Positions 44,276 through 61,853 of a stretch of 64,000 bases of DNA are shown piece by piece. A program made the translations under genes and the position numbers. Each line of letters starts with the position of its first letter. The stretch's first letter is position 1. The notes under the pieces were generated by a model. That model was given only the letters and a program-made list of their open reading frames with translations. It ran no database searches and had not been told where the DNA came from. The DNA comes from Roseivirga echinicomitans (GTDB lineage: Bacteria > Bacteroidota > Bacteroidia > Cytophagales > Cyclobacteriaceae), in assembly GCF_001592935.1 (NCBI RefSeq), contig NZ_LRDB01000050.1, positions 558,001 to 622,000 of the forward strand, read 5' to 3'.

Positions 44276-44963
44276 GGTAGTTGCTAATGCTGATGAAGCT
44301 GTAAAAGACATTCCTAATAATGCAGTATTGATGTTAGGTGGTTTTGGGCTTTGTGGTATTCCTGAAAACTGTATTTCTGCCCTGCTCAAAACGGGTGTAA
44401 ATGGTTTGACCTGCATTTCAAACAACGCAGGTGTGGATGATTTCGGGATTGGCTTAATGCTTCAAACCCGTCAGGTAAAGAAAATGATTTCCTCTTATGT
44501 AGGAGAGAATGCTGAATTCGAAAGGCAATTACTTTCTGGTGAACTGGAAGTAGACCTTATTCCACAAGGTACTTTAGCAGAACGTATTAGGGCCGGTGGA
44601 GCTGGAATTCCTGCTTTTTACACACCAGCAGGTTACGGTACCGAAGTGGCCGAAGGCAAAGAAACCAGAGAATACGATGGCAAAATGTATTTGCTCGAAA
44701 ATTGGCTTAAGGCTGATTTCGCTTTAGTAAAAGCTTGGAAAGGCGATACTTCAGGCAACTTGATCTTTAAAGGAACCGCCAGAAACTTTAACCCAATGAT
44801 GGCTATGGCAGGTAAAATTACCATAGTCGAGGTAGAAGAACTGGTAGAGCCGGGCGAGTTAGATCCTAATCACATTCATACTCCCGGAATTTATGTGCAG
44901 CGCATTTTTCAAGGGAAGGGTTATGAAAAACGGATCGAACAAAGAACCACTAGGTTAAAATGA
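44265..44963 (+). CDS. scoA: 3-oxoacid CoA-transferase subunit A
   Basis: The 232-residue subunit has the family I CoA-transferase alpha pattern: [59 protein letters not shown] (in parts), and [16 protein letters not shown]. With the B subunit it moves CoA between succinyl-CoA and acetoacetate or a similar ketoacid. Subunits A and B are normally adjacent; here a four-helix-bundle gene with flanking repeats separates them. The TGA stop lies within the left repeat. Confidence 0.92.
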
Positions 44964-45541
44964 TTTGAAAATTAGCCGATTTGATGATTTGAAAATTAAA
45001 GGTAACGAAAATGAGGAGTGATAAACCAAACTTGATTGTGGATTTGACCTTAGCATTTTCAGTTAAAATCATCGAATTCACTGAGCTTCTAGAAAGCAAA
45101 GGGAAAAGAGTAATCGCCAATCAGCTACTAAAGTCAGGCACCAGTATTGGAGCAAATACTTACGAAGCACAGAACAGCGAAAGCAAAAGAGACTTTATTC
45201 ATAAATTCAAAATTGCCGCAAAAGAAGCGGACGAAACAATGTACTGGTTAAAACTTTGTGAAATGGCTCCTAGTTACCCTTTTGATGAAACAATCAAAAC
45301 AGACCTAGTTTCTATCTCGAAGATCATCTCAAAAATAATATCCAGCAGTAAAGATCCGTGATTTGATGATTGGGTAATTTGATGATTTCAAAATAATGCA
45401 TAAAACTGATTCAGTGAATAATTATCAAATTAACACATCATCAAATTTTCAAATTATCTTATCTTCAAATCAACACATCCTCAAATTTTCAAATTATCTT
45501 ATCTTCAAATCAACACATCCTCAAATTTTCAAATTAACACC
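44961..45541 (+). mobile_element. Candidate repeat-bounded element carrying a four-helix-bundle gene, inserted between scoA and scoB
   Basis: The left end (44961-44998) contains TGATTTGAAAATT and TTTGATGATTTGAAAATTA. After the gene, 45359-45394 repeats TGATTTGATGATT in direct order, and 45424-45539 carries the inverse form CATCATCAAATTTTCAAATT. The right side includes an exact 40-base tandem duplication (45441-45480 = 45481-45520) and a third partial unit. The stop codons of scoA and of the internal gene both lie in the TGATTTG word. No transposase is present; the element status is inferred from layout. Confidence 0.55.
45011..45361 (+). CDS. Four-helix-bundle protein (23S rRNA intervening-sequence type)
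   Basis: The 116-residue protein matches the TIGR02436/S23-like four-helix-bundle family: helix 1 (DLTLAFSVKIIEFTELLES), the signature QLLKSGTSIGANTYEAQ, helix 3 (DFIHKFKIAAKEADETMYW), and helix 4 (TDLVSISKIISKIISS). The family was first seen in intervening sequences of rRNA genes; its function is unknown, and relatives include the Avd accessory proteins of diversity-generating retroelements. It splits the CoA transferase operon. Its TGA stop is made of the flanking repeat word. A second paralogue lies at 59976. Confidence 0.9.
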   Translation: MRSDKPNLIVDLTLAFSVKIIEFTELLESKGKRVIANQLLKSGTSIGANTYEAQNSESKRDFIHKFKIAAKEADETMYWLKLCEMAPSYPFDETIKTDLVSISKIISKIISSSKDP

Positions 45542-46201
45542 ATGGCACTCGATAAAATAGGCATTGCGAAAAGAATAGCACAGGAAGTTCAAGATGGTAC
45601 TTATATCAATTTGGGAATTGGCATTCCTACCCTTGTGGCCAATTTTATTCCTGAAAACATTAGTGTGGTGCTTCAGTCTGAGAATGGATTATTGGGCATT
45701 GGCCCTTTTCCAGAAGAAGATGAGGTAGATGCAGATTTAATCAATGCAGGGAAGCAGACGGTAACCACTACCAAAGGCTCTGCACTTTTCAGCTCTTCTC
45801 AGAGCTTCGAGATGATTAGAGGCGGCCATGTTGACCTTACCATTTTGGGAGCCATGGAAGTGTCTGAAAATGGAGACATCGCCAACTGGAAAATCCCAGG
45901 CAAAATGGTGAAAGGCATGGGTGGTGCCATGGACCTTGTAGCTTCTGCTGACAATATTATCGTGGCTATGCAGCATTGTAGCCGCAGTGGAGACTCCAAA
46001 CTTTTGAGCAAATGTAGTTTACCCATCACGGGTTTGCGTTGCGTTAAGAAAGTCGTAACCGATTTAGCTGTTTTGGATGTCCTTCCCGAAGGTGGTTTTA
46101 GACTTTTAGAAAGGGCACCTGGCGTAACTGTAGAAGAAATCAAAGCCGCCACTGCAGGCAAGCTAATCATCGAAGGTGATATTCCTGAGATGAAGATTTG
46201 A
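45542..46201 (+). CDS. scoB: 3-oxoacid CoA-transferase subunit B
   Basis: The 219-residue beta subunit carries the catalytic Glu in VLQSENGLLGIG, preceded by the INLGIGIPTLVANF motif, and has GGHVDLTILGAMEV and NIIVAMQHCSRSGD. It completes the enzyme begun by scoA 580 bases upstream. Its ATG follows the right-hand repeat array by one base, so expression must read through the inserted region or use a promoter within it. Confidence 0.93.
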   Translation: MALDKIGIAKRIAQEVQDGTYINLGIGIPTLVANFIPENISVVLQSENGLLGIGPFPEEDEVDADLINAGKQTVTTTKGSALFSSSQSFEMIRGGHVDLTILGAMEVSENGDIANWKIPGKMVKGMGGAMDLVASADNIIVAMQHCSRSGDSKLLSKCSLPITGLRCVKKVVTDLAVLDVLPEGGFRLLERAPGVTVEEIKAATAGKLIIEGDIPEMKI

Positions 46202-46471
46202 TTTTTAGTTCTTTGGGTTAAAATATTGAATTGTAAGTCATTCCGTAGGTTCCGAGACTTCGGAATTTCACGTACCACAAGTCAACCACCTGTCGCAGGT
46301 TCTCCGAACCTGTGACGTCATATTAATCAGGAACTCCAGTCCCTTTCTCTCTTACCCTTTTTGTGACTTATTTGCACACACCTTTTCATCCTGAGTGGTA
46401 CCGCGTTCGCAGAAGCTTTAGCGGATGAGAAGCGAAGGAACTATATAAACGAAGCCATCGACAAAAAATAA
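46202..46471. repeat. Intergenic region with several dispersed repeat copies
   Basis: No gene. 46289-46318 is a hairpin repeat GTCGCAGGTTC-TCC-GAACCTGTGAC, seen worn at 34949-34975. 46381-46443 (CCTTTTCATCCTGAGTGG, then TTAGCGGATGAGAAGCGAAGG) matches the repeat parts at 1143-1225. A further imperfect dyad (CCGTAGGTTCCGAGACTTCGG) lies at 46244-46265. Confidence 0.6.
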
Positions 46472-46519
46472 CATACCCAAGTTTCTTATGCATAAGAAAA
46501 TTATGTATACTTGTGTATG
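46472..46519 (+). promoter_or_regulatory. Nested palindrome operator of the fourth padR gene
   Basis: Outer arms CATACCCAAGT (46472-46482) and ACTTGTGTATG (46509-46519) pair with one mismatch around a perfect 18-base palindrome TTTCTTATGCATAAGAAA (46482-46499). The right arm includes the start codon ATG at 46517. A bound PadR would block both the promoter region (TATACTTG at 46506-46513 is a possible -7 element) and ribosome access. Confidence 0.65.
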
Positions 46520-46855
46520 TCATCGAGTAAACTATTAAAAGGAAGTCTAGCCACCATTATTCTCAAGCTGCTGAAAGAGAACGAAAAAATGTACGGTTAC
46601 GAAATCACACAACGTGTAAAGGAAATTACCGCAGGTGAATTCAAAATCACGGAAGGTGCCTTATACCCTACCCTTCATAAATTAGAGGCCGAGGGAATGC
46701 TCTCTACCGAAACACAAAAGGTAGATAATCGCATCCGAAAATACTACTCCCTTACCAAAGAAGGTAATGCAGAAGCCCAAACCAAAGTGGCCGAACTCGA
46801 AGAGTTTCTGTTGAATTTACAAAAGTTATTGAACCCTAAATTAGGCATGGGATGA
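46517..46855 (+). CDS. PadR family transcriptional regulator
   Basis: The 112-residue protein shows a different PadR subtype from the permease-linked ones: SSSKLLKGSLATIILKLLKE, YGYEITQRVKEITAGEFKITEGALYPTLHKLEAEG (in parts), and DNRIRKYYSLTKEG. The ATG at 46517 is preferred over a TTG two codons upstream. It overlaps the next gene (ATGA) and heads a five-gene operon with four small membrane proteins. A nested palindrome covers its start. Confidence 0.92.
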   Translation: MSSSKLLKGSLATIILKLLKENEKMYGYEITQRVKEITAGEFKITEGALYPTLHKLEAEGMLSTETQKVDNRIRKYYSLTKEGNAEAQTKVAELEEFLLNLQKLLNPKLGMG

Positions 46856-47538
46856 GTCTAACCACCACACAGCACAACATATTGGTGAAGTACCTCAAGG
46901 ATGTGGGCATTGGACATCAAGAGCCTTTCGAGGAGTTTTACGATCATATTGCTACGGCAATTGAAAAGGACAAACCAGAAGATGTAAAAAAATACTTCAG
47001 AGAAGTTATTCAACCCTCTTTTGGTGGAGTTCAAGGCATGCTAGATGTTGTGAATGAACAGAGTAAAATCAGGAGAATTGCAATTTTGAAACGGGCAAAA
47101 GAGATTTTCCTTAGCCTGTTTGGCTGGCCAGCCATAGGCTTTGTTATGGTATCTTTTATCTTACTACAAACCTTATCAAATCGATTTGACGAAAAATATG
47201 TGCTCATATACGCAGCAATTTTAGGTCTTTTTATTCCAGCCTCAGTCATGATGTATGGTGTATTTTCATTTTATAAGGATTGTAAAAAGCAGCAACTACC
47301 TTATAGAGCTAATGACCTGAATTATTCAATTCTTTTACTTATGGTGATCCCATTTAATGCCTTGAGCATTGTAGGAAACCTCCTGATTCCAATATTTATA
47401 GGCAGAGATAACTTCGGTCAGTTTCTAACAGCTTACCCAGCAATAACCGTATGTTTTTCTACACTAGTCTTGTTGTTTGGCTTTACCTGTCTTAAGCTTT
47501 TTAAAGAGAATTTCACCTTTAAACTAGAGATGATATGA
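46852..47538 (+). CDS. Membrane protein with N-terminal HAAS-like helical domain (paralogue 1 of 4)
   Basis: The 228 residues comprise a cytoplasmic N-terminal helical domain (1-~85) with LVKYLKDVGI, EEFYDHIATAIEKD (D31-H32) and IQPSFGGVQGML, then four membrane segments from about residue 100 (IGFVMVSFILLQTL, YAAILGLFIPASVMMYG, LLLMVIPFNALSIVG, VCFSTLVLLFGFTC). The domain resembles the HAAS/DUF1700-type domains that go with PadR regulators. It is translationally coupled to padR and to the next paralogue. Confidence 0.7.
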   Translation: MSLTTTQHNILVKYLKDVGIGHQEPFEEFYDHIATAIEKDKPEDVKKYFREVIQPSFGGVQGMLDVVNEQSKIRRIAILKRAKEIFLSLFGWPAIGFVMVSFILLQTLSNRFDEKYVLIYAAILGLFIPASVMMYGVFSFYKDCKKQQLPYRANDLNYSILLLMVIPFNALSIVGNLLIPIFIGRDNFGQFLTAYPAITVCFSTLVLLFGFTCLKLFKENFTFKLEMI

Positions 47539-48248
47539 CAGCACTAGAAGCAAAAGCCATACAGCTGTACCTTGCAGACTTGGATGTTGATGAGGTAGAG
47601 TTCTACAACGAACTGTATGACCACATTACAACAGCCTATATTGAAAGAACAGATCGATCATTATGCATTAAGGAGTTCTTAAAAGATGTTATAATCCCAA
47701 GTTTCGGAGGGGAGAAAGCATTACGTGCTGAAATAGATAAACAAAAGAAAATTGTCAGAAAAGGGATCTACAAAGAGGCGCTCCTACTTTACCTTTCCTT
47801 TTTTTCAACTCCAAAAGGTTTATTCAAGAGTACTCTAGTGTTGTGTATGATTCTAGTATTCAACGAGGTGTCGACAACAAGAACATTATTCTCTGCACTT
47901 GTAATTCTAGCCATTTGCTTGCCCTTTTGGCTAATCAACATCATTCAATGGCGCTTTAAGTCGAAATGCAGAAAACGAAAGCTCCCGTTTTACACGAGTC
48001 ACACCAATCGAATTGTGCTATTGATCGCAACACTCCTTGTTGCAGTTCTACAGGGTTTACCTGATATCACAAGTCGAATTTTATATGGCGAGCGTTTTAG
48101 TTTATTAAGAGTTTTAGAGGCTAATGCGACAATCCATTCCATAAGTGCTTTTTTGTTTATTATTTATGGTTGGGTTTGCCTTGAAATGATTTGGCGAAAA
48201 ACCACCATTAATAAAAAGATCACTTCTAAATTTCTTGCCCAACCTTAA
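47535..48248 (+). CDS. Membrane protein with N-terminal HAAS-like helical domain (paralogue 2 of 4)
   Basis: The 237-residue protein has the same plan: N-terminal helical domain with IQLYLADLDVDE, FYNELYDHITTAY (D29-H30), VIIPSFGGEKALR; then about four membrane segments. The FGG block aligns with paralogue 1. It starts within the stop of paralogue 1 (ATGA) and is 12 bases from paralogue 3. Function unknown. Confidence 0.7.
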   Translation: MTALEAKAIQLYLADLDVDEVEFYNELYDHITTAYIERTDRSLCIKEFLKDVIIPSFGGEKALRAEIDKQKKIVRKGIYKEALLLYLSFFSTPKGLFKSTLVLCMILVFNEVSTTRTLFSALVILAICLPFWLINIIQWRFKSKCRKRKLPFYTSHTNRIVLLIATLLVAVLQGLPDITSRILYGERFSLLRVLEANATIHSISAFLFIIYGWVCLEMIWRKTTINKKITSKFLAQP

Positions 48249-48260
48249 ACTAGAACTGAT

Positions 48261-48905
48261 ATGAAACTAGCGCACTATCAAATTGAGCATATTACAGCCT
48301 ATGTAAAGGACCAAAATATTTGGTATTATGATGTTCAACATGAACTGGTAGATCACATTGCATCGTCTGTAGAAGACGGTATGAGCAAAGAAAACTTGAC
48401 CTTCACGAAAGCATTTACCCAAAGCATCGAAGCTATTAATTGCAAAACTATACAGCGCAAGAGAATGCGAGCTTCTACTTCTGCCGTACACCGTGAACTG
48501 CTAAAAGAATTGGTGGCCACAGCAACAAGCATTCGAATACTGGCGCTAGGCGCTATCTTTCTAGCTTGCTATCTCATGTTCTACAGTGCATTACCAACAG
48601 AAAGCTTGGTGAAATCCTTAAAGACCTTAAGCATTAGTGCTGTTATAATTCCATTGTTACTTTCACTCTTCGATCGGAAAAATAGGCCTTACAACTACAC
48701 AACGTTTATCAGCATCTTCAACGGTTTATTCTTTTATGTCATCATACTCAATGGCATAGAAATGCATGGCGCCATTGACAGCATCAAACCTCAATCCCTA
48801 TTCTACCCAGTTTTCTTTACTATTCTTTTCACCTGTATTTACCTGAGCTATTCGATTGCTTTTAAACAGTACCAAAAAATAAAGAAACATGTCGCTTACC
48901 GTTGA
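48261..48905 (+). CDS. Membrane protein with N-terminal HAAS-like helical domain (paralogue 3 of 4)
   Basis: The 214-residue protein keeps the domain core (ITAYVKDQNI, QHELVDHIASSVED with D31-H32) but lacks the FGG block of paralogues 1 and 2. About four or five membrane segments follow from residue ~90. It overlaps the start of paralogue 4 by 17 bases. It is the shortest and most divergent of the four. Confidence 0.68.
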   Translation: MKLAHYQIEHITAYVKDQNIWYYDVQHELVDHIASSVEDGMSKENLTFTKAFTQSIEAINCKTIQRKRMRASTSAVHRELLKELVATATSIRILALGAIFLACYLMFYSALPTESLVKSLKTLSISAVIIPLLLSLFDRKNRPYNYTTFISIFNGLFFYVIILNGIEMHGAIDSIKPQSLFYPVFFTILFTCIYLSYSIAFKQYQKIKKHVAYR

Positions 48906-49584
48906 GCAAATAACAGCAATCAAGGCGTTTATCAATAAGCGAGGCTTCAATACTATTGAAGTGGAAATGGAAGCGCTTGACCACATGGCGAGTAAAGTAG
49001 AGGAATTGCTCGAAGAAAAACCCAACATGAACTTTGACTTGGCCATAACGAAAGCACATTCCTCCTTCGGGATTTACGGCTTATCTACTTTGGCAGAATC
49101 AATTGAAGATGGTTTGCTTCAGCGATTTAAAACACAATTCTTCAAGGAGCTCCTATCCTATTTCAACAGTTCCAAAATACTTATACCCATTGGATTGGCT
49201 ATAATAGGCTACTTTCTTCTAAGCCAATACCCACAAAACGATAAAGGAATGTTTCTCCACTCGGGCTTCCTGATCTACGGATTCCTTTTAGCAGTAATTC
49301 CTTATTCCATATTTAGAAAGCAAATGAAGCGATGGGAAAAACGATCGAGCATTGTTAAAATGAGTACCCTCGGCATTTACCTTACTCAAGGTGTATTTGG
49401 CCAAGGCTTTGGCTTAACTACGAAGATGCTCTATGAACAAGGGGCTGATGCTTTTCCTTATGTATTTATAGCTGGCTTTGTGCTAACCTCGCTTACCGTT
49501 TTCATTAATTATGATTTAATGAAATGGGGCATTGCCACGGTCAACGAAAAATGGGCGAAGTATATGCCTGAGGTGGCAGTGTAG
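48889..49584 (+). CDS. Membrane protein with N-terminal HAAS-like helical domain (paralogue 4 of 4)
   Basis: The 231-residue protein has IKAFINKRGF, MEALDHMASKVEE (D31-H32), and a SSFGIYG block at ~67 that aligns with the FGG position of paralogues 1-2. Four membrane segments follow (ILIPIGLAIIGYFLL, HSGFLIYGFLLAVIPY, STLGIYLTQGVFGQGFG, FPYVFIAGFVLTSLTVF). It ends the operon; a dispersed repeat begins right at its stop codon. Confidence 0.7.
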   Translation: MSLTVEQITAIKAFINKRGFNTIEVEMEALDHMASKVEELLEEKPNMNFDLAITKAHSSFGIYGLSTLAESIEDGLLQRFKTQFFKELLSYFNSSKILIPIGLAIIGYFLLSQYPQNDKGMFLHSGFLIYGFLLAVIPYSIFRKQMKRWEKRSSIVKMSTLGIYLTQGVFGQGFGLTTKMLYEQGADAFPYVFIAGFVLTSLTVFINYDLMKWGIATVNEKWAKYMPEVAV

Positions 49585-49650
49585 TTTTTAGACCCTTCGT
49601 AACCTCAGGGAAAGAAAAGAAGCGGTTCTACTTCCTTAAACTTCAGCAGG
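49585..49650. repeat. Dispersed repeat, second copy
   Basis: TTTTTAGACCCTTCGTAACC and the following TCAGGGAAAGAAAA match 3576-3613, and the next ~35 bases are similar in part (ACTTC, CTTCA). The copy starts one base after the stop codon at 49584. Confidence 0.7.
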
Positions 49651-49703
49651 TAAGTTATTTTCTACTATCATTAAGCTTCTCGTTAAAAATCATCAACAGT
49701 TAA

Positions 49704-50285
49704 ATGCTTTACATCAAATTCAATATTCAGGACAGTTCAAAGTATCAAGATTTTGAAACACTGTATGAACACATGGTTAAGGTAAGACAACCAGGTTTTA
49801 AGTTTGAAGATGAGGAAGGCCCTGAGTTTGATTGGGATGGCATGACGCAAGCCGAAGTAGATAAGGCGGTAGCAAAACTATCTGATTTTTTAGATCAAGC
49901 GCCAGAAGAGCGCAGGTACATAGCGCTTATACCAGCCTACGTAAATGAGTTTCTACAAAGCTATCTACAAAAGGATAATGAGAAATTGGGTGCGCTTGGC
50001 ATTCAAGAAGTGCTGTCCATCTTCAATTATCTAGAATTCGACTTTGAGGTGGATATGGATAAGCTTGAAAGAATCAATGAACATTCCGGCATCGTTGAAT
50101 GCTCTACAGGCAACTACCCTTTTGGTGGACTAGAGCGCTTTCTAATTACATTAAGAGCTTATAGTCTCACTCCCACCGAATGCTTCGATGGCTTTAACAT
50201 CTGTGAAATTGAATGGACCTCAAATTTTGAATACAACACCACTGAATTGCCTGAAAGAACAAAAACATATTTAAATAGAGGTTGA
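49704..50285 (+). CDS. Hypothetical acidic protein
   Basis: The 193 residues are strongly acidic (FEDEEGPEFDWDGM, EFDFEVDMDKLER) with no signal or membrane segment, so probably cytoplasmic. No domain is recognised. The N-terminus MLYIKFNIQDSSKYQDFETL and the ordered alternation of charged helices argue for a real gene. It stands alone after a repeat-containing spacer. Confidence 0.6.
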   Translation: MLYIKFNIQDSSKYQDFETLYEHMVKVRQPGFKFEDEEGPEFDWDGMTQAEVDKAVAKLSDFLDQAPEERRYIALIPAYVNEFLQSYLQKDNEKLGALGIQEVLSIFNYLEFDFEVDMDKLERINEHSGIVECSTGNYPFGGLERFLITLRAYSLTPTECFDGFNICEIEWTSNFEYNTTELPERTKTYLNRG

Positions 50286-50439
50286 AATAGGGCCTTTGTA
50301 CTGTATGCCATAGAGTACTTCTAGATATGAACGTCATGTACCGGAACATATTCACTCTTGGACGCAAGCCTTTAGCATAAAAAAACTCCAACCAAATTAA
50401 ATGTTAAAGTGTCTAATCTAGTTGTATAACCATTGACCG

Positions 50440-50787
50440 ATGAGAAAACTTGCCTTACTAATATTGACAGCTTTATGCATTTCGTGCGACAAGAATGAAG
50501 AAGATATTGCTTCTGACACTTATGAAGTCACCACCGCTGGAACTAGTGTTGACTGTAAACTTATACTCATTGATTTTAAAGAAAGCGACTTACACAGAAT
50601 TGAGAAAATAACTAATTCAAATGGATTAAGGTATAAGGCATACAATTTGAATAATCAGAATTTCAGTGCAGAGGGACAAGTTTTAACTGTTAGGCTGAGA
50701 AAAACACTTGACTCTGAGGTTTTTGCCTGCACAACATTAGGGGTCGGTTACCCATGGGTGACGGTATTAGAAGCAAAGTTAAAATAA
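50440..50787 (+). CDS. Small putative lipoprotein
   Basis: The 115-residue protein starts with an SPII signal (LCISC, Cys16). The mature part is beta-rich and contains two further cysteines (SVDCKLIL, VFACTTLG), suggesting a disulfide and a small sandwich fold. No family recognised; typical of orphan lipoproteins in this group. It is convergent with the helicase gene. Confidence 0.6.
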   Translation: MRKLALLILTALCISCDKNEEDIASDTYEVTTAGTSVDCKLILIDFKESDLHRIEKITNSNGLRYKAYNLNNQNFSAEGQVLTVRLRKTLDSEVFACTTLGVGYPWVTVLEAKLK

Positions 50788-50872
50788 AGGAAGTCTGATC
50801 AACAATAAAGATTTGACACTTGTCCCTATTCTTCATTAATAAACTTCAGATAACCCTCTCAGCTTATATCTC

Positions 50873-50906
50873 ACAAAAAAAGTCTGCTGAAATAAATCAG
50901 CAGACC
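50873..50906 (-). terminator. Intrinsic terminator of the DEAD-box helicase gene
   Basis: On the minus strand GTCTGCTGA-TTTATT-TCAGCAGAC is followed by an uninterrupted T-run of seven. Confidence 0.88.
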
Positions 50907-50935
50907 TTATATTTTACTTGATCAAGGGTTTAGCC

Positions 50936-52780: not shown

Positions 52781-52870
52781 AAGATTGTAGAATTATACGT
52801 TGGGAACATTTGAGTTGATTCTGTGTTAGGTGAAGGAAGTACTTTTAATTTTACCATTGCCAAAACTTAA
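52781..52870 (+). pseudogene. Histidine kinase C-terminal remnant (HATPase G2 box)
   Basis: In one frame it reads KIVELYVGNI, stop, VDSVLGEGSTFNFTIAKT, stop. This is the end of a HATPase domain: intact kinases have KIVE-HGGNIWV-S--GEGSTF-F-I. The in-frame TGA stands exactly where the conserved Trp (TGG) is expected, a one-base nonsense change. Upstream, the same frame has further stops. The remnant ends five bases before the response regulator gene. Confidence 0.8.
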
Positions 52871-52875
52871 AATTT

Positions 52876-53301: not shown

Positions 53302-53333
53302 TCAACTAAGAGTTTCATAATTGACTTTTAAAT

Positions 53334-53368
53334 AAAAACCTGTCAGTCTAGATGACCAACAGGTTTAA
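53334..53368 (-). terminator. Intrinsic terminator of the trp operon
   Basis: On the minus strand AAACCTGT ... ACAGGTTT is followed by TTTTTATTT, just after the last gene of the operon (stop at 53389). Confidence 0.8.
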
Positions 53369-53388
53369 AATTATAGGCCTCTCTCAAC

Positions 53389-54399
53389 TCAAAAACTCTC
53401 TCTCAGCTCAAAGGTCTTGCGCATTCGGTTGATCATTTTTGTCGATTCTTCGAAGTTTAGCGTTTGCTGGCCATCAGAATAAGCTTCTTCTGGTTTTTCA
53501 TGCGTTTCGAAGATTACGCCATCGGCACCTGCCATAATACTGGCCAAAGCGATAGGTTCTACAAAATCACGAATACCTATTCCATGCGAAGGATCTGAAA
53601 TCACTGGCAAATGCGTTTTCTCCTTTAGTACAGCAATCGCATTCAAGTCCATTGTGTTTCTTGTGGCGCTTTCATAAGTACGGATACCTCTTTCGCAAAG
53701 CAAAAGCCTTTCATTTCCTCCACTGAAAACATATTCCGCAGAAGAAAGCAGTTCGTCAATGGTGCCAGAGATACCACGCTTGATCATTACTGGCTTATCC
53801 ACTTTACCCAATTCATCCAGAAGATTGAAATTTTGGGTGTTTCTTGCGCCTACCTGATAAATATCGGTGTATGGGTACATTTCGGCTATTTGAGAAACCT
53901 GCATTACCTCAGTAATGATTTTAATACCCGCTTCTTTGGCCAATTGATACCACAGTTGTAGGCCTTCAATACCCAAGCCACGGAAGGAATAAGGCGAGCT
54001 TCGAGGCTTGTATACGCCTCCACGCATAATAGAAATGCCGTTTTCTTTCAAATGCCCAATCACCTTTCTGATCTGGTCTTCACTTTCGATAGAGCACGGC
54101 CCAGCCATAATCTGGAAACCGCCTTCTTCAATGACAACGCCATCGCCAAGATCGATAATGGTAGGTTTTACTTTCCACTTTTTCGATACCAGTTTATAGT
54201 CGTCCGATACGATATGAATATCGCTGATGCCTTCCATATGGCCGATTTCACGGATATCGAAATCCTTCTTACCGGTACCAATCAGGTATTCTCCCTTTTG
54301 GGTAATCACGGTGGTCGGCTTATATTTCAAGCCCTTTACTCTATTGACAATGGCCTCTTTTTGGGCCGAATTAATGTCTTTTTCGAATTGTATAATCAT
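53389..54399 (-). CDS. aroF: 3-deoxy-7-phosphoheptulonate (DAHP) synthase, type I-beta with N-terminal ACT-like domain
   Basis: The 336-residue enzyme makes DAHP from phosphoenolpyruvate and erythrose-4-phosphate, the first step of the shikimate pathway. An N-terminal ferredoxin-like regulatory domain (1-~70) precedes the barrel: FQIMAGPCSIES, RGGVYKPRSSPYSFRGLG, MIKRGISGTIDELL, LPVISDPSHGIGIRD, VIFETHEKPEEAYSDGQQ. This architecture is that of the Thermotoga-type enzyme, where the added domain gives feedback control. It is the last gene of the trp operon, so Trp-controlled supply of DAHP is plausible. Confidence 0.92.
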   Translation of the reverse strand: MIIQFEKDINSAQKEAIVNRVKGLKYKPTTVITQKGEYLIGTGKKDFDIREIGHMEGISDIHIVSDDYKLVSKKWKVKPTIIDLGDGVVIEEGGFQIMAGPCSIESEDQIRKVIGHLKENGISIMRGGVYKPRSSPYSFRGLGIEGLQLWYQLAKEAGIKIITEVMQVSQIAEMYPYTDIYQVGARNTQNFNLLDELGKVDKPVMIKRGISGTIDELLSSAEYVFSGGNERLLLCERGIRTYESATRNTMDLNAIAVLKEKTHLPVISDPSHGIGIRDFVEPIALASIMAGADGVIFETHEKPEEAYSDGQQTLNFEESTKMINRMRKTFELRESF

Positions 54400-54404
54400 G
54401 ATTT

Positions 54405-54513
54405 AGTCATTGGTCAATAGTCATTGGTCGATGGTGAACAGTAACTACGAATTCTAATTTCTTTAAATATTTTTGGTGTCTCTAATCACTGTTTTCTGAT
54501 TCACTGATCTACT
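54405..54513 (-). repeat. trpA-aroF junction repeats
   Basis: AGTCATTGGTC occurs twice with a 14-base period (54405-54429). At 54482-54513 lies a copy of the trp-type repeat (minus strand CAGTAGATCAGTGAATCAG), and the trpA TAG stop is part of it. This repeat also flanks the four-helix-bundle gene at 59976-60353. Confidence 0.65.
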
Positions 54514-55282
54514 GCTTCACAGATTTAACAAAACCAGAGATCTTCTCTTCCAAATTCCCTTCTTCCGAAATGGCTTTAATAAAAGCACTACCGATGATGG
54601 CTCCGTTGGCATTTTCGCAGGCTTTGTCAAAGGTTTCAGCATTGGAGATTCCAAATCCAATGAGGGTTGGGTTTTTCAAGTTCATATTTTTTACGCGAGC
54701 GAAATAGTCGGATTGATCTAGAGAAATGCTGGTCTTTGCCCCAGTGGTACTCGCTGACGATACCATGTAGATAAAGCCGTTTGAGTTCTCGTCAACCTGC
54801 TTGATTCTGGCGTCAGAAGTCTGCGGAGTGATTAAGAAGATATTGTACAGCCCATGTTTTTCGAACATTGGTTTATACATCTCTAAATACTCAAACATCG
54901 GTAAGTCAGGTAGAATTACTGCGTCCACCCCTACTTCCTCGCACTTGGCGCAAAAGTTCTCCATGCCAAATTGCACAATTGGGTTTACATAACCCATCAG
55001 CACAATCGGCACCGAAACCTTGTCTCTAATGTCTTTCAATTGGCTAAACAGCACTTTCAAACTCATACCGTTTTCCAAAGCCACCCCATTGCTTTCTTGA
55101 ATGGTCGGGCCATCGGCAATGGGATCGGAATATGGAATTCCAATTTCAATTAAGTCGGCACCCGAAGTTTCAAGCGCTTCTAAAATTGTCGTGGTATCGT
55201 TCAGCTGAGGATAACCCGCAGTAAAGTACACGTTCAATACGCGCTCCTTTTTGTCCTGAAATAATTTATCTATTCTGTTCAT
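54509..55282 (-). CDS. trpA: Tryptophan synthase alpha subunit
   Basis: The 257-residue TIM barrel splits indole-3-glycerol phosphate. Catalytic Glu is in ADLIEIGIPYSDPIADG (E48 region) and Asp in the following SDP loop; the phosphate-binding site is GFGISNAETF and NGAIIGSAFIKAI. It forms the alpha2-beta2 complex with TrpB encoded next to it. The TAG stop is inside a dispersed repeat. Confidence 0.96.
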   Translation of the reverse strand: MNRIDKLFQDKKERVLNVYFTAGYPQLNDTTTILEALETSGADLIEIGIPYSDPIADGPTIQESNGVALENGMSLKVLFSQLKDIRDKVSVPIVLMGYVNPIVQFGMENFCAKCEEVGVDAVILPDLPMFEYLEMYKPMFEKHGLYNIFLITPQTSDARIKQVDENSNGFIYMVSSASTTGAKTSISLDQSDYFARVKNMNLKNPTLIGFGISNAETFDKACENANGAIIGSAFIKAISEEGNLEEKISGFVKSVKQ

Positions 55283-55362
55283 TGTTTTTAGTGCTTAGTA
55301 ACTCGTGCACGGTGCTCAGGGATTTTAAAACTGAGCACTGAGCACTGTAGACTATCAACCCA
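55283..55362 (-). repeat. trpB-trpA junction inverted repeat
   Basis: GTGCTCAG (55312-55319) and CTGAGCAC (55331-55338), the latter followed by a second GAGCACTG unit, form an inverted repeat with short tandem units. The array lies entirely between the trpB stop and the trpA start. Confidence 0.6.
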
Positions 55363-56544
55363 TTAATATTTCCCCCATTTAATGTAGGTCTCTAAATCCT
55401 TATCGCCACGGCCAGAAAGGTTAATGACCACCACATCGGAAGGATTAAATGTCATTTGATTGAGCGCGGCAAAGGCATGCGCACTTTCCACCGCAGGGAT
55501 AATTCCTTCTGTTCGGCTCAATAGAATTCCAGCTTTCATGGCTTCTTCATCCGTTACGCTGTAGAATTTAGCTCTACCGGTTTCAAACAAATGAGCATGC
55601 ACTGGGCCAATACCAGGGTAATCCAAACCAGCCGAAATTGAATAGGGCTCTATGACTTGGCCGTCTTCCGTCTGCATTAAAAGTGTTTTGCTGCCATGAA
55701 GAACACCCGGTTTCCCTAAAACGGTGGTCGCTGCCGAATGTCCTGTTTGATTTCCTAAACCAGCGGCTTCAACAGCTATCAGTCTCACATCTTCTTCATT
55801 ATAATAATGATAGAACGCACCAGCCGCATTACTTCCACCACCCACGCAGGCAATCACGTAGTCTGGATTTTGCTTACCTTTCTTTTCTAACAGTTGGGCT
55901 TTAATTTCTTTGCTTATGACCGACTGAAAACGAGCCACCATTTCAGGATATGGGTGAGGTCCTACTACCGAACCGATAATGTAGTGCGTGTCGGTTGGGT
56001 TATTGATCCAGTGACGCATGGCCTCGTTGGTGGCATCTTTTAGGGTTTTGCTACCACTTTTAGCCGGGCGGACTTCAGCGCCTAAAATACGCATCCGCTC
56101 TACGTTTGGTTTTTGCCGCGCCATGTCCACTTTGCCCATGTACACAATGCATTCAATACCCATTAGAGCGCAAACCGTAGCGGTTGCTACCCCATGTTGA
56201 CCTGCGCCAGTTTCTGCGATGATCTTCTGTTTGCCTAGCTTTTGCGCCAGTAGAATCTGACCTACCGTATTGTTCACCTTATGCGCTCCTGTATGGCAAA
56301 GGTCTTCTCTTTTAAGGTAGATTTCCGCTCCATACTTCTCAGACAAACGCTCGGCTAAATATAGGGGAGTTGGGCGACCGACAAAATCACGAAGCAAGTG
56401 ATTGAATTGCTTTTGAAAATCAGGCGCCTGAACAATCTGTTCGTAGTTCTCTCGTAGTTCTTCAATATTTGGGTAAAGCATTTCAGGAATGAATGCTCCA
56501 CCAAAATTTCCATAATACCCTCTTTCGTCTACTTGTACTTTCAT
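55363..56544 (-). CDS. trpB: Tryptophan synthase beta subunit
   Basis: The 393-residue PLP enzyme joins indole and serine. The PLP lysine is K89 in HTGAHKVNN, with the phosphate loop [10 protein letters not shown] and the substrate-binding [10 protein letters not shown]. Family member of the TrpB1 type (partner of TrpA). Length is normal. The stop is followed directly by the junction repeat. Confidence 0.97.
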
Positions 56545-56616
56545 TTCTTTATTTTCTAAACTTTACTCTACTTCTTGTTTCCTCATCGAAACTCCCACGC
56601 ACACTACCTACTTGAA

Positions 56617-56644
56617 CCGTCATTGCGAGGCACGAAGCAATCTC
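56617..56644 (-). repeat. CGTCATTGCGAG-type repeat supplying the trpF stop
   Basis: CCGTCATTGCGAGGCACGAA and the next GCAATCTC match the start of the element at 20561-20617. On the minus strand it encodes the last eight trpF codons (VRLLRASQ) and the TGA stop. Confidence 0.75.
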
Positions 56645-57249
56645 ACTTTCAACTCCTTCAACCTCTCCACATCCTTCAACCCAGGCTCAATCTCAAACTT
56701 TGAGTTGACATCAATTGCATAAGGTTGAACTTTCAAATCGCTTAACGATTCAATGTTTTCTAAGTCAATTCCTCCACTCAAGAAGTAAGGAATCCCCCCA
56801 TCGTATTCATTCAGTAACTCCCAGTTAAACAGCTCTCCATTCCCCCCTCTTTCTTTTCCTTTGGTATCAAAAAGGAAGAAATCGACATTAGGCTTATACG
56901 CTTCCAACTCACCGAAATCAAAGCTTTCTCCTACTGAAAACACTTTCATTACCTTAACACCACTCGCATTTAGGTCAGCACAATATTCAGGAGCTTCGTC
57001 ACCGTGTAGCTGGACTAAATCTAATCCAAACTGAATTACTTTCTCTTTCACAAAATCAAGTGCTGCGTTTACAAACACACCTACCTTTTCTGTACTGGAA
57101 GGAAAAGCATTTAACAACTGAGCATCCAAACCATCTGCTACATCACGCTTCGACTTTCCGTAGAAAATAAAGCCCATATAGTCAGGCTGTAGCTTTAACA
57201 GCTCGCTGATATTGGTGCTTTCTCGCATGCCGCAGACTTTTAGTTTCAT
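56620..57249 (-). CDS. trpF: Phosphoribosylanthranilate isomerase
   Basis: The 209-residue TIM-barrel enzyme has the catalytic Cys in LKVCGMRES at the start, the barrel Asp near the end (YAIDVNSKFEIEPGLKDVERL), and the QLHGDEAPEYC and FLSGGIDLENI motifs. The normal protein ends after the VERLKEL helix; the last residues (VRLLRASQ) come from a dispersed repeat. The lost or replaced tail is unlikely to matter for the active site. Confidence 0.93.
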   Translation of the reverse strand: MKLKVCGMRESTNISELLKLQPDYMGFIFYGKSKRDVADGLDAQLLNAFPSSTEKVGVFVNAALDFVKEKVIQFGLDLVQLHGDEAPEYCADLNASGVKVMKVFSVGESFDFGELEAYKPNVDFFLFDTKGKERGGNGELFNWELLNEYDGGIPYFLSGGIDLENIESLSDLKVQPYAIDVNSKFEIEPGLKDVERLKELKVRLLRASQ

Positions 57250-57355
57250 CGTTAGTAGTTAGTAGTTAGTAGTTAGTAGTTAGAGAGAACTTTCAATGAG
57301 AATATAGGTTCCCCGATTTCCTGTTTTCTGATTAACTGATCAACTTTTTTCCTTT
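57250..57355 (-). repeat. trpC-trpF junction repeats
   Basis: 57251-57283 is a 7-base tandem array (GTTAGTA, nearly five copies). 57320-57346 carries a copy of the trp-type repeat (plus strand CTGTTTTCTGATTAACTGAT) next to the trpC stop. Confidence 0.65.
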
Positions 57356-58156
57356 TTACACTGAAAGCTGTTTCTGAACTGCCTCGATAAATTCCGCAGC
57401 TGCACGCTCTGGCCGTCCCGTTTTCATAAAGGTTTCTCCAATTAAAAAGCCTTGGAAGCCTACCTTTTTCAACTCAACAATCGTAGCAGGGTCGCTAATA
57501 CCGCTTTCTGAAATCTTCACAAATTCGTTCGGGATTTTGTCCACCAACATTTTTGAAGTTTCAATACTGGTTTCGAAAGTCTTGAGGTTGCGGTTGTTTA
57601 CTCCTACCACGTCCAAATCTGGCGAGAGATAAGGATGCAACTCTTCCTCATTATGAATTTCCATCAGCACTTCTAAATGAAGCGTTTTGGCAAATGCAGC
57701 TAATTCCTTCAATCGTTCTGGAGTCAAAGCGGCTGCAATCAGCAAAATAGCATCAGCCCCTATTGACTTGGCTTCAATGATCTGATATTCATCAATGATA
57801 AAGTCCTTTCTAAGTACTGGGCAGAAGTTGAATTTTCTGGCTGTAGAAAGGTCTTCGTTCTTTCCTCCGAAAAACTCAGAATCCGTCAATACAGAAAGTG
57901 CCGAAGCGCCTGCCTGCATGTAACCAATAGTAGTGCGTTCTACCTTCGCATGCGCATTAATCATTCCTTTCGAAGGCGATTTACGCTTGAACTCAGCTAT
58001 TATTCCAGATTTATCTTCACGCAGCAAATACTTTTTCAACGAAACGGTTTTGCTCTCGAAGTATATGCTCTGCTCTAATAACTTAGGAGGAAAAAGCCCT
58101 TTCCGTTCGGCTACTTCCTTCTCTTTGTGTGCGATTATTTTTTGTAGTATGTCCAT
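57356..58156 (-). CDS. trpC: Indole-3-glycerol phosphate synthase
   Basis: The 266-residue barrel converts CdRP to indole-3-glycerol phosphate. Catalytic and binding motifs: IIAEFKRKSPSKG, VLRKDFIIDEYQI, EVLMEIHNEEEL, VGVNNRNLKTFE, KISESGISDPA. It is separate from trpF, as usual in Bacteroidota. It lies in operon order between trpD and trpF. Confidence 0.96.
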   Translation of the reverse strand: MDILQKIIAHKEKEVAERKGLFPPKLLEQSIYFESKTVSLKKYLLREDKSGIIAEFKRKSPSKGMINAHAKVERTTIGYMQAGASALSVLTDSEFFGGKNEDLSTARKFNFCPVLRKDFIIDEYQIIEAKSIGADAILLIAAALTPERLKELAAFAKTLHLEVLMEIHNEEELHPYLSPDLDVVGVNNRNLKTFETSIETSKMLVDKIPNEFVKISESGISDPATIVELKKVGFQGFLIGETFMKTGRPERAAAEFIEAVQKQLSV

Positions 58157-58285
58157 TCTGTGTTAGTTATTGGTTATTAGTTATTGGTTATTAAGTCACT
58201 GAGGTAGTTCAATCTTTTCTGCTGAATTCGAAATCAAAAAGAAGGATTCCCTTTTCCTCATAACTCATTTCTCATACACTAATAA
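58157..58285 (-). repeat. trpD-trpC junction repeats
   Basis: TTAGTTATTGGTTA is repeated exactly at 58163-58176 and 58177-58190 (14-base period). Near the trpD stop, 58259-58286 reads as an inverted partner (plus strand ATAACTCATTTCTCATACAC, then TAATAACTA); the stop TAG is part of it. Confidence 0.65.
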
Positions 58286-59272
58286 CTACAAGTCAAGTAT
58301 CTTTTTAAATGCCTTCAATGCCTTCCCCGATTCGAGTGATTCCCGTGCGTGGCCAACGGCTTCTTCAGTGCTATAGCCTTTACCGCACTGTAAAGCCATG
58401 GCCGAGTTCGCAATCACCACTTCGTTTTGAGCTTTTGTGCCTTCGCCTTTTAATATCTTCTCGAAAATCTTAGCCGATTCTTCTACCGTTTCACCACCAA
58501 AAATAGCTTCGGGCTGAATTCGAGTTAATCCTAAATCTTCAGGTTGAACAATTTCTTCTTGTAAATGCGTGATTTTCTTAAAGCCTCCTGTCAATGAAAT
58601 TTCATCATAGCCATCCAGCGCATGTAAAATCACAAACTGCTTATCGGTTTTTTGGTAAAGGTAGCCGTATAATCTGGCCAACTCTAGACTAAACACACCC
58701 ACCAATTGTTTTTTCGGGAACGAAGGATTCACCATTGGCCCCAACATATTGAAGAAGGTTTTTACGCCTAAGTCTCTTCGAATGGGTGCTACGTTTTTCA
58801 TGGCTGGGTGAAAAAGTGGTGCATGCAAAAAGGCAATTCCGCTTTCATCCAAACTCCTTTTCAGCTTACCAATATCGTTGGTGAATTCGTAACCGAAATG
58901 CGCCATCAGGTTAGAAGAACCAGAAACAGAGGACACGCCATTATTTCCGTGCTTGGCTACATTCTGCCCTGCACCAGCCACAATAAAGGAGCTTAGTGTG
59001 GAAATGTTAAAGGTGTTCTTTCCGTCTCCGCCAGTACCGCAAAGATCGATGGCATCGTATTCTGGAATATCTACCGGCACGCAAAGTTCCAGCATCGCAT
59101 CCCGAAAACCTTCGAGTTCTTCTACCGTGATGCTTCGCATTAAGTACACGGTAAGAAATGCCGCCACTTGACTTTGATTGTATTTCCCCAGTGTGAGGTT
59201 CATCAAAATCTCCTTTGCTGTGGTTTTATCCAGCGATTTATATTCTATAAGTTGGTTTAATATGTCTTTCAT
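58286..59272 (-). CDS. trpD: Anthranilate phosphoribosyltransferase
   Basis: The 328-residue enzyme adds phosphoribose to anthranilate. The PRPP-binding motif is DLCGTGGDGKNTFNIST with the following KHGNNGVSSVSGSSNL block; the metal region DGYDEISLTG is near 220. It is not fused to trpG. Normal length. Confidence 0.96.
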   Translation of the reverse strand: MKDILNQLIEYKSLDKTTAKEILMNLTLGKYNQSQVAAFLTVYLMRSITVEELEGFRDAMLELCVPVDIPEYDAIDLCGTGGDGKNTFNISTLSSFIVAGAGQNVAKHGNNGVSSVSGSSNLMAHFGYEFTNDIGKLKRSLDESGIAFLHAPLFHPAMKNVAPIRRDLGVKTFFNMLGPMVNPSFPKKQLVGVFSLELARLYGYLYQKTDKQFVILHALDGYDEISLTGGFKKITHLQEEIVQPEDLGLTRIQPEAIFGGETVEESAKIFEKILKGEGTKAQNEVVIANSAMALQCGKGYSTEEAVGHARESLESGKALKAFKKILDL

Positions 59273-59281
59273 CTTGTCTTG

Positions 59282-59377
59282 TTAGTTATCAGGAATCAGA
59301 AAATCAGTGGATCAGGGTTTAGTCAGTGAAGTGAATTCCTGTTTTCTGATCACCGTTTCACTGTTTACTGAATCATT
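59282..59377 (-). repeat. Solo inverted repeat at the trpG-trpD junction (extends trpG)
   Basis: Outer words TCAGGAATCAGAAAATCAGT and, on the other side, CTGTTTTCTGATCACCGTTT form an inverted repeat of the same kind as the borders of the four-helix-bundle gene at 59976-60353, but with no gene inside. It encodes the last ~21 residues of trpG. Confidence 0.7.
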
Positions 59378-59941
59378 GAGCCAATTCTCAAGCAATTTAT
59401 GCCCATACTCTGTCATGATGGATTCTGGGTGAAACTGTACGCCCTTTACATCATACTCCTTATGACTGATCGCCATGATTTCACCGAGTTCGTCATAGGC
59501 GGTGACTTCAAGTTCACTTCCTAAATCCTCCTTACTTACATTCCAGCTGTGGTAATGGCAAATTTCATATTCGCTTGGAATCCCATTGAATAGTCTGTCG
59601 TCAGGCTTCACCACTTTAATTTTGCTTGAAACGCCATGCAGCACTTCAGCCATATTATAAAGTGAGGCTCCATAGGCTTCGGCAATGGCTTGATGCCCCA
59701 AGCAAACTCCCAAAATGCTTTTGGTTGCACCGTAACGCTTGATCAATTCAGGCATAATTCCCGCTTCTTCTGGAATTCCTGGCCCAGGCGAAAGCAAAAT
59801 CTTATCGTAAGCCTCCACTTCGTCTAGTGTAATTTGATCGTTTCGTGCCACGGTCATTTCGGCTCCCTCTGCCAACTCACGCAGGTAATGCACCAAGTTG
59901 TAGGTGAATGAATCGTAGTTATCTAGTATTAGTATCTTCAT
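59312..59941 (-). CDS. trpG: Anthranilate synthase glutamine amidotransferase subunit
   Basis: The 209-residue class I amidotransferase has LILDNYDSFTYN, the oxyanion strand LLSPGPGIPEEAG, nucleophile C80 in GVCLGHQAIAEAYG and His/Glu in VQFHPESIMTEYG (~170). The usual end is LLENWL at ~188; the remaining tail NDSVNSETVIRKQEFTSLTK is encoded by a repeat. With TrpE it supplies ammonia to chorismate. The gene for a four-helix-bundle protein separates it from trpE. Confidence 0.95.
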   Translation of the reverse strand: MKILILDNYDSFTYNLVHYLRELAEGAEMTVARNDQITLDEVEAYDKILLSPGPGIPEEAGIMPELIKRYGATKSILGVCLGHQAIAEAYGASLYNMAEVLHGVSSKIKVVKPDDRLFNGIPSEYEICHYHSWNVSKEDLGSELEVTAYDELGEIMAISHKEYDVKGVQFHPESIMTEYGHKLLENWLNDSVNSETVIRKQEFTSLTKP

Positions 59942-59947
59942 TTTGTT

Positions 59948-60417
59948 CAGTTATCAGTTATCAGTGAATCAGAAATCAGGAGTTCGGGTTTGTTCCCTTC
60001 GATTTTATTAAATAGTTAATGTAACCATTGATTATCCTAATGCATTCTTCCACTTGTTCATCGTACTTCTTTGCTAGTTCCTCATTAATGTATCCTTCAT
60101 CATAAGCAACAGTTATGTGGTCTTGTATTTCAGTCAAAGAACCTCTTGAGACCCTACAAAACTGGATGTTCTCCTGATAATGAAACCTTCCGTAGCCTTC
60201 AGCTAAATTTGCAGTAACAGATCGTGAAGCCCTGATCAGTTGATCAACAAGTTTGAATTTCTCCTCGACAGGAAAAGTCTTTGTCAAAGCCGATATATCG
60301 ACCCTTAGGACACGCCCCTTTTTCCAAGCTTCTAAATCCTTAAAACTCTTCATCTGATTATATTTTTCTTCGTTTCTAATTCCTGATCCACTGATTTCTG
60401 ATCCACTGATTCACTGC
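59948..60417 (-). mobile_element. Candidate repeat-bounded element carrying a four-helix-bundle gene, inserted between trpE and trpG
   Basis: In gene direction the left border (60417-60376) has a tandem CAGTGGATCAGAAAT and CAGTGGATCAGGAAT (15-base period). The right border (59980-59948) is the inverse, with ATTCACTGATAACTGATAAC. The border begins directly after the trpE TAG, and the internal gene's TGA lies in it. The whole unit is ~470 bases and contains only this gene. No transposase is visible; mobility is inferred. Confidence 0.6.
59976..60353 (-). CDS. Four-helix-bundle protein (23S rRNA intervening-sequence type)
   Basis: The 125-residue protein has the TIGR02436-type start SFKDLEAWKKGRVLRVDI, the central QLIRASRSVTANLAEGYGRF (family signature), and two further helices (CRVSRGSLTEIQDHITVA, ELAKKYDEQVEECIRIIN). 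It belongs to a different branch of the family from the gene at 45011. It sits in the trp operon, where it has no metabolic reason to be. Its TGA stop is supplied by the border repeat. Function of the family is unknown. Confidence 0.92.
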   Translation of the reverse strand: MKSFKDLEAWKKGRVLRVDISALTKTFPVEEKFKLVDQLIRASRSVTANLAEGYGRFHYQENIQFCRVSRGSLTEIQDHITVAYDEGYINEELAKKYDEQVEECIRIINGYINYLIKSKGTNPNS

Positions 60418-61827: not shown

Positions 61828-61853
61828 TTTTCGGTTCTTCAATGGCCTAAAAC

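Follow-up and report, generated by a model that had tools for sequence, protein, structure and literature searches.

Four-helix-bundle genes between private inverted heptamer arrays at operon junctions: a candidate mobile relative of the 23S rRNA intervening sequences

The scoA/scoB and trpE/trpG junctions

The DNA analysed here (the window) is a stretch of 64,000 nucleotides (nt) of the Roseivirga echinicomitans assembly GCF_001592935.1, contig NZ_LRDB01000050.1, forward-strand positions 558,001 to 622,000; the genome is called G000 below. Within it two small genes of the S23 four-helix-bundle family (PF05635) split operons, one between scoA and scoB and the other between trpE and trpG, and each lies between two arrays of short-period repeats, the arms, which face each other in inverted order. 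To our knowledge PF05635 proteins have no known function. The parts of the two elements and their host genes are as follows, in window coordinates and in the order of reading.

44265..44963, plus strand: scoA, CoA transferase subunit A, the upstream host gene, whose stop codon TGA is the first unit of the left arm
44961..45002, plus strand: sco left arm, word TGATTTGA/AAATT in units of 7-8 nt
45011..45361, plus strand: sco S23 (four-helix-bundle) gene, 116 amino acids (aa), PF05635 and TIGR02436
45359..45390, plus strand: left-type arm behind the sco S23 gene, with the S23 stop codon as its first unit; it forms the left part of a gene-less unit
45419..45541, plus strand: sco right arm, about 120 nt, inverted with respect to the left arm and ending at the scoB start
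45542..46201, plus strand: scoB, the downstream host gene
60418..61842, minus strand: trpE, the upstream host gene, whose stop codon TAG adjoins the left arm
60376..60417, minus strand: left arm of the trp element, word ATCAGTGG/ATCAGAA
59976..60353, minus strand: trp S23 (four-helix-bundle) gene, 125 aa, PF05635 and TIGR02436
59945..59979, minus strand: right arm of the trp element, with units that read as TAACTGA type in the sense strand, ending before the trpG start
59312..59941, minus strand: trpG, the downstream host gene

Profile searches bear out the family and the host genes named in a first-pass annotation of the window. The sco and trp proteins match PF05635 with E-values of 1.5e-16 and 1.5e-32 (61.0 and 112.4 bits, cut-off 33.8) and TIGR02436 with scores of 78.4 and 105.2 (cut-off 24), and Pfam identifies the neighbours as two CoA-transferase subunits and as TrpE/TrpG. 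PF05635 is the sole Pfam match of each protein, and no Y1 (HUH) transposase was found in either. As had also been remarked at first pass, there is no transposase among the immediate neighbours of the two genes by Pfam; nor is there a reverse transcriptase, a search that was confined to these neighbours. A defence role was considered and rejected, neither protein having a PADLOC match.

Resemblance between arms was scored by aligning the 160 nt upstream of a gene to the reverse complement of the 160 nt downstream, with a threshold of at least 28; pairs made from arms of different loci (swapped pairs) served as control. The two window genes score 44 and 33. Positions 44956-44998 and 45419-45461 at sco are 79% complementary over 43 nt, and 59960-59988 and 60382-60410 at trp are 83% complementary over 29 nt. 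The units have a period of 7 nt, in part 8, and the sequence differs between the two sites, as the annotation had it. Its further statement that the borders begin at the upstream stop and supply the stop of the inner gene is likewise visible in the DNA: the scoA stop sits inside the left arm as its first unit (TGA TTTGA...), and the S23 stop is supplied by an arm. Behind the sco S23 gene, the array at 45359..45390 (plus strand) is 81% identical to 44961-44996, and by eye 45359-45541 reads as a second unit, one without a gene, in which a left-type arm is followed by a core of about 30 nt and the long right arm. A stretch similar to 45359-45541 was seen in a related genome, G004.

A search of G000 gave seven family matches, representing six S23 genes of which one is frameshifted. 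All six lie between an upstream stop codon and a downstream start codon, at the junctions fadB|fadA, sufB|sufC, metH|metF, lepA|folD, scoA|scoB and trpE|trpG (we take the fad, suf, met, lepA and folD names from the translated neighbours), and each of the six arm pairs has its own word. The frameshifted gene is the one at lepA|folD (L005/L007, G000:C50:82223-82536), where GTGCT-type arms are still visible by eye.

Inverted arms as a trait of the family

The family is present in 19 of 19 genomes of the genus, and PF05635 in 90 of 118 sampled Bacteroidota genomes. Six of the 133 matches listed for the genus were not fetched; among the 127 others, 122 lie co-directionally between two same-strand genes. 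Their own arm pairs have a median score of 23, compared with 16 for swapped pairs, and 38 of the 127 reach at least 28, a value attained by 1.2% of swapped pairs. The same excess appears at the best matches from the phylum (14 of 30 loci vs 1.1% swapped) and across many phyla (47 of 76 loci vs 1.1%). The last set comes from a scan of species genomes covering Chloroflexota, Acidobacteriota, Planctomycetota, Cyanobacteria, the candidate phyla radiation (CPR), Clostridia, an archaeon and others, in which four of 80 loci lay too near a contig end to be scored. When these cross-phyla loci were recounted with profiles, arms were found at 45 of 74 S23 genes and at 4 of 264 other genes, so that the repeats are related to the gene family, as first proposed, and not scattered at random.

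Genes that neighbour S23 loci in the genus provide a further comparison, and 0 of 168 reach 28. Over 464 kb of G000, 3 of 369 genes do so: the two window genes and one gene with a repeat of a different type. This last gene (G000:C1:465314-465760, minus strand; 148 aa) stands between long inverted copies of a CACTCAT.CTCGTTTGTAACGAG-type repeat that is unrelated to the heptamers.

The elements are also strongly biased in orientation. Counts of genes in the same sense as both neighbours, (+,+), vs antisense to both, (-,-), are 122:0 in the genus, 22:2 in the phylum set and 55:3 across phyla, a bias that points to coupling with transcription, whether by selection or by mechanism. Together, these counts confirm that the arrangement seen in the window is real and general beyond it.

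Period, core and words of the arms

Split or fragmentary matches were set aside, five in the same-site comparison of arms and seven from the periodicity analysis onward, and 114 of the remaining 120 genus loci had spacers long enough for lag analysis. Identity at a lag of 7 nt is 0.446 in left arms and 0.422 in right arms, against an expected 0.306. Additional maxima lie at 14, 21 and 28, and smaller ones at 8, 16 and 24; lag 7 is also prominent in the phylum and cross-phyla sets. Phase alignment of the arms that were periodic enough (134 of 240 in the genus, 89 of 148 across phyla) reveals a heptamer core of A-G-T followed by four freer positions, read toward the gene from both sides. Core frequencies are A.71, G.75 and T.55 in the genus and A.73, G.75 and T.47 across phyla, and the information content is 1.91 bits (column-permuted controls 1.57+-0.09) and 1.90 bits (1.39+-0.03), respectively. 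Loci of one genome have the period and the AGT core in common and differ in their words.

The words go with branches of the protein tree, a co-variation that the first-pass annotation had proposed to check. Pairs from different sites that are at least 50% identical share more 6-mers than do arms permuted within genomes (73 pairs, p=0.007). In addition, one trp clade of 11 rows, supported at 96 by the Shimodaira-Hasegawa-like approximate likelihood-ratio test (SH-aLRT), spans trpE|G, trpC|F and trpG|next, and its words, judged by eye, split along a supported subclade into six of CAG type and five of GTTAAT type. At another site, designated (3,4), two separate branches carry different words, with starred branches that still allow a single origin.

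The order of unit variants is partly matched between the two arms (own score 25.8 vs 23.6 after permutation within the array; 46 of 71 periodic right arms; p=2.6e-5), which hints at occasional copying of an arm from its partner. An in-register control that shuffled blocks over 110 nt was rejected as flawed, for it also broke up the array; the within-array version gives the smaller effect. Arms change fast: between G000 and G004 the sco S23 gene is 97.7% identical and its arms 66% and 72%.

In one Nostoc genome (G136) 12 of 14 matches were examined. Six of these S23 genes have separate, nearly perfect words on both sides, with scores of 49-120 (for example GGGGACT/GGGGATT, GGAGTTA, TAATTCG, CAATTCG and GGAAGTC; in one of them the unit is closer to 9 nt), and one further locus scores 42. 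At two Nostoc loci (L384, L388) the upstream genes end alike and resemble by eye the C-terminus of an insertion sequence (IS) transposase; S23 may be an IS passenger there.

Second-family genes and possible further cargo

A second family of small genes, GxxExxY (PF13366), was surveyed at 21 of 25 genus matches (L326-L350) and 29 phylum matches with loci (L351-L379). Thirty-six of these 50 genes lie in co-directional gene pairs and one is antisense to both neighbours; inverted private arms reach 28 at 17 of the 50, as do 2.3% of swapped pairs. GxxExxY arms have no lag-7 peak (0.270) and show a weak broad peak at 9-12 nt (0.323 at 9). The 7-nt period is therefore tied to the S23 family and not to the type of site or to the genome. 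At trpC|trpF of G005 and G010 (L208, L213) a different small gene of about 120 aa lies in heptamer-like arms; it has no Pfam match over cut-off and is a possible third cargo.

Occupied, empty and relic junctions

The trp and sco sites of the genus were classed by eye as occupied, relic or empty. In G016, G011, G015 and G014 the empty trpE/trpG site is a 4-nt ATGA overlap; at occupied sites the element separates the last sense codon from the trpG ATG and supplies a new stop. The precise insertion claimed at first pass is upheld. The trpE stop is TAG at 8 of 9 occupied or relic sites and at 0 of 8 empty ones (p=4e-4; 17 of the 19 genomes, G009 being omitted with its trpE end outside the locus and G008 with no trpG match). 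At scoA/scoB the empty state in G005, G009, G013, G006 and G003 is an overlap or a spacer of 1-2 nt, and the stop is TGA at 10 of 11 occupied or relic sites vs 1 of 8 empty ones (p=1.2e-3).

Relics, in which arms surround a lost or truncated gene, occur at sco in G001, G016, G017 and G018 and at trp in G003, G017 and G018. The trpC|trpF junction varies likewise: G016 and G018 have an S23 gene there, several genomes, G000 among them, have arrays alone, and G012, G014 and G015 have nearly nothing. The empty sites that the first-pass annotation had proposed to look for thus exist at both scoAB and trpEG, some relatives lack the genes, and both gain and loss at operon junctions are well supported.

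Gene-less units and orphan arrays

Arrays of 7 or 8 nt are present in 7 of the 46 intergenic gaps of the window, three of them at S23 genes and four gene-less, all four in or beside the trp operon (54400-58285); no gap holds an array of another lag. The gene-less ones are:

58157..58285, minus strand: armed spacer trpD|trpC, word GTTATTAG/GTTATTGG, inverted by eye
57250..57355, minus strand: spacer trpC|trpF, heptamer arrays of two words, ATCAGTT on the left and AGTTAGT on the right
55283..55362, minus strand: inverted GTGCTCA hairpin trpB/trpA, by eye
54400..54508, minus strand: spacer with two different heptamer words

That arms also occur without S23 was not foreseen in the first-pass annotation. 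Elsewhere in G000, (TAACTGA)n arrays lie at several places away from S23 genes, and in contigs C14, C20 and C51 they lie within the first 90 bases, so that such arrays probably break the assembly and are undercounted. The reversed control word occurs too (AGTCAAT doublet, 25 times in G000) and is another abundant heptamer.

A unit in which a core of about 30 nt separates a left and a right arm recurs among the close relatives G000, G001, G004 and G009, with 4, 3, 6 (two being pieces of one unit) and 2 gene-less matches, respectively, and weak single matches in G015 and G018. The 13 copies inspected, out of 17 matches, are spread over five gene contexts, of which one is formed by permease paralogues. 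In every case the upstream gene has the same sense as the unit, and so does the downstream gene in 6 of the 7 cases where it was seen. Since these copies have no gene, expression of S23 does not account for their common orientation, unless every one of them arose by deletion from a copy that had the gene. The word of the right arm varies among copies that share a core, and G004 and G009 carry (TAACTGA)n at trpC|trpF.

Age of the copies

Some S23 copies are younger than their surroundings, as judged from synonymous divergence (dS) far below that of the neighbours: 0.154 vs 1.03 and 1.28 between G010 and G017, 0.091 vs 0.65 and 0.49 for the window sco gene between G000 and G004, and 0.475 vs 1.71 and 1.44 between G006 and G013. 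Co-conversion of downstream sequence in these younger copies was considered and set aside; it is suggestive in 3 of 5 outlier pairs, but the gene start is very conserved in a control pair as well.

The tree of 120 genus S23 proteins (122 columns, many forks unresolved) places the 15 larger site groups with 14 changes of site, which is the minimum; shuffled labels need 65.3 on average. Copies would accordingly stay at a junction or return to it. The trp clade found at three junctions, the two branches at site (3,4) and the words shared between different sites are exceptions that speak for movement.

A mobile element and its alternatives

We consider the element to be probably a mobile (selfish) unit of one gene and two private inverted 7-nt arrays, a relative in protein operons of the 23S rRNA intervening sequence (IVS). 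A Xanthomonas member of the family is described as a toroidal homopentamer (PMC4990558), and two relatives found by search of the PDB have five chains each. Such a ring might bind successive heptamers of its own arms and so mark the ends of the element, which a host enzyme or one acting in trans would then copy, mostly back into the same junction in a homing-like manner and occasionally into a new one. The arms would lengthen and shorten by slippage, and loss of the gene would leave them behind as orphan heptamer arrays. Given this recurrent anatomy, a PF05635 protein probably has its own heptamer arms as ligand, and its role can be tested directly. The anatomy also explains, for annotation, short four-helix-bundle and GxxExxY genes that interrupt biosynthetic operons, and it raises the question of how the unit length of a repeat can be constant when the word differs from copy to copy.

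Several observations weigh against a mobile element. Arms are often weak: 69 of 127 genus matches score below 24, the fad locus of G000 scores 17, and five of the 12 Nostoc loci score 13-27, the array being one-sided at some of them. The gene-less arms may in part be independent of S23. Arrays of lag 7 or 8 occupy 4 of 173 gaps in 400 kb of contig C1, one of them at an S23 gene, which is close to the background of 1-3 gaps for each of the single other lags, and across the 118 genomes TAACTGA doublets are not associated with the presence of S23 (10 of 12 doublet genomes have it, vs 90 of 118 overall). Several gene-less copies are orthologous between the four genomes, which reduces the number of independent cases, and few independent contexts underlie their common orientation. 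There are exceptions to the sense bias, since three of the 12 Nostoc genes, with strong arms (L399, L402, L405), are antisense to both neighbours. No mobility enzyme is known for the element, no insertion event was observed among the sites compared, and comparison of occupied with empty junctions by eye revealed no clear target-site duplication, the stop codon being what differs. Site groups cluster near-perfectly on the S23 tree, and the median ratio of nonsynonymous to synonymous divergence (dN/dS) of S23 is 0.067 (17 pairs), indicating purifying selection that also fits a host function. Among 244 same-junction pairs, S23 is more similar than both neighbours in 14 only, and its median identity is 9.5 points below that of the neighbours. 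Site clustering and purifying selection together imply that gains are rare or lead back to the same junction. Of the mobility suggested at first pass, precise insertion and empty sites stand, and the simple view of a jumping gene is disfavoured by the 14 changes among 15 site groups and the low dN/dS.

The same selection, clustering and co-direction with both neighbours (122 of 127 genus matches) would be expected of a resident host gene, and this is the alternative that survives best, possible though on balance rather unlikely. The vertically inherited S23 ring would bind its own AGT-repeat leader and tune translation of the operon, mobility being minor. The proposal gains from a likeness to TRAP, which likewise combines AG-containing repeats with a toroidal oligomer. 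The decayed and empty sites in close relatives and the frameshifted copy in G000 are hard to reconcile with it, as are the unrelated functions of the host operons, the common-core gene-less unit in five contexts and the youth of some copies relative to their neighbours. Both arms are moreover kept, yet just one would be an AG repeat in the RNA. In favour of a host role, known heptamer repeats directly precede start codons (PMC4679880).

That both arms are kept would follow if they formed a stem in the transcript that is cut by RNase III, the insert being removed from the mRNA. Known IVSs are bordered by complementary sequences and cut by this enzyme (PMC4990558). In predicted folds 34% of left-arm bases pair with their own right arm (52 loci, drawn as every second one) vs 12% with a foreign one (43 controls), with 41 of 50 paired at sco and 29 of 67 at trp; at the same site, complementarity of own arms exceeds that of crossed arms by 2.5 (54 of 84, p=7e-4). 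The sense orientation (122:0, 22:2 and 55:3) also suits an RNA-level element, whereas the Nostoc counts (5:3 among 12 loci) do not. Selection on an RNA duplex was sought directly and rejected: 74 aligned arms contain 55 wobble-type and 50 anti-wobble mismatches, and the lack of a G-U preference suggests that RNA pairing is not what keeps the arms alike. Lineage-specific compensation between arms was likewise not seen in 13 close pairs, in which arms of the same genome are not consistently more complementary to each other than to those of the relative. We regard removal from the mRNA as an unlikely reason for the arms.

A broader formulation of the mobile element is, in our estimate, doubtful. 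In it the protein would set the unit length of the repeat for each family (7 nt with the S23 ring, about 9-12 nt with GxxExxY), unit length and AGT core being kept while the word drifts, and the element would move in sense direction into stop/start junctions through an RNA intermediate, S23, as a relative of Avd, guiding a reverse transcriptase in trans; rRNA IVSs and the orphan heptamers of cyanobacteria, Xanthomonas and Beggiatoaceae would be variants and fossils. Sense-directed movement into such junctions would indeed suggest an RNA intermediate, a reading weakened by the three of 12 Nostoc copies that are antisense to both neighbours.

Polymerase slippage has been put forward as the cause of over-represented heptamers in bacteria (PMC4692102), and gene-less arrays exist in G000, so S23 might be a passive hitch-hiker that tolerates or prefers generic slippage products of operon spacers. 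This is very improbable given the control genes without such arms (0 of 168; 4 of 264), the same word on both sides in inverted order, and the GxxExxY arms with their weak broad peak at 9-12 in place of a lag-7 one (0.270). The samples examined already point to inverted heptamer pairs being far commoner at S23 than at other genes.

Mobilisation in trans by a resident transposase, for which the two Nostoc S23 genes behind an apparent IS transposase C-terminus (by eye) and the gene-less units resembling miniature inverted-repeat transposable elements (MITEs) can be cited, is highly unlikely: each locus has its own arms and no terminal inverted repeat is conserved between loci, there is no clear target duplication, and a DNA transposon would not be expected to show a strong sense bias.

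Relation to known systems

A search of titles and abstract openings, mostly outside subscription journals, found no description of S23 genes in paired heptamer arms. Units of REP sequences (repetitive extragenic palindromes) and RAYTs (REP-associated tyrosine transposases), called REPtrons, consist of a gene flanked by inverted short repeats and have gene-less copies in the genome. The S23 elements share both features. Unlike REP/RAYT they encode no Y1 transposase, and in place of a single family of palindromes their arms consist of tandem heptamers whose word is private to the locus. Like DNA transposons and MITEs they have empty sites in relatives and dispersed copies; unlike them they lack a terminal inverted repeat conserved between copies. 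The Avd protein of diversity-generating retroelements is homologous to PF05635 (4DWL vs 2GSC; PMC10053308), whereas no reverse transcriptase lies next to the two window genes.

Closer in the DNA itself are two sets of heptamer repeats from the literature. The TAACTGA direct repeats of Beggiatoaceae, Cyanobacteria and Bacteroidetes (PMC4679880) are the same heptamer as the right arm of trp-type units, including that of the window trp element, and lie directly before start codons. A term search of the main text of PMC4679880 gave neither S23 nor four-helix, and the parts examined draw no link to paired arms. The Xanthomonas and Nostoc heptamers GGGAATC and GGGGA(C/T)T, discussed as quadruplex-forming repeats of unknown role (PMC4692102), are intergenic and often form inverted pairs (70 cases in Xcc), and the Nostoc word equals the arms of the S23 gene L399; the main text of that paper, by term search, does not contain S23. 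S23 elements thus offer one possible cause of heptamer repeats that these two papers left unexplained. The two can be tested together, which does not make all heptamer repeats S23-derived.

The nearest relatives are the 23S rRNA IVSs of Leptospira and Coxiella, which carry an S23p open reading frame (ORF), are bordered by complementary sequences, are cut by RNase III and have been called selfish (PMC4990558, where the function of PF05635 proteins is given as not known). The elements described here resemble them in protein family, in the single ORF between complementary borders, in lying within a transcript and in patchy presence. They differ in that the window elements stand between protein genes at stop/start junctions and not in a helix of 23S rRNA, and in that a genome holds several copies, each with its own array word. 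Gene and bordering repeats therefore fit the rRNA intervening-sequence class and the location does not, and the rRNA intervening sequences are thereby joined to a larger class of operon elements.

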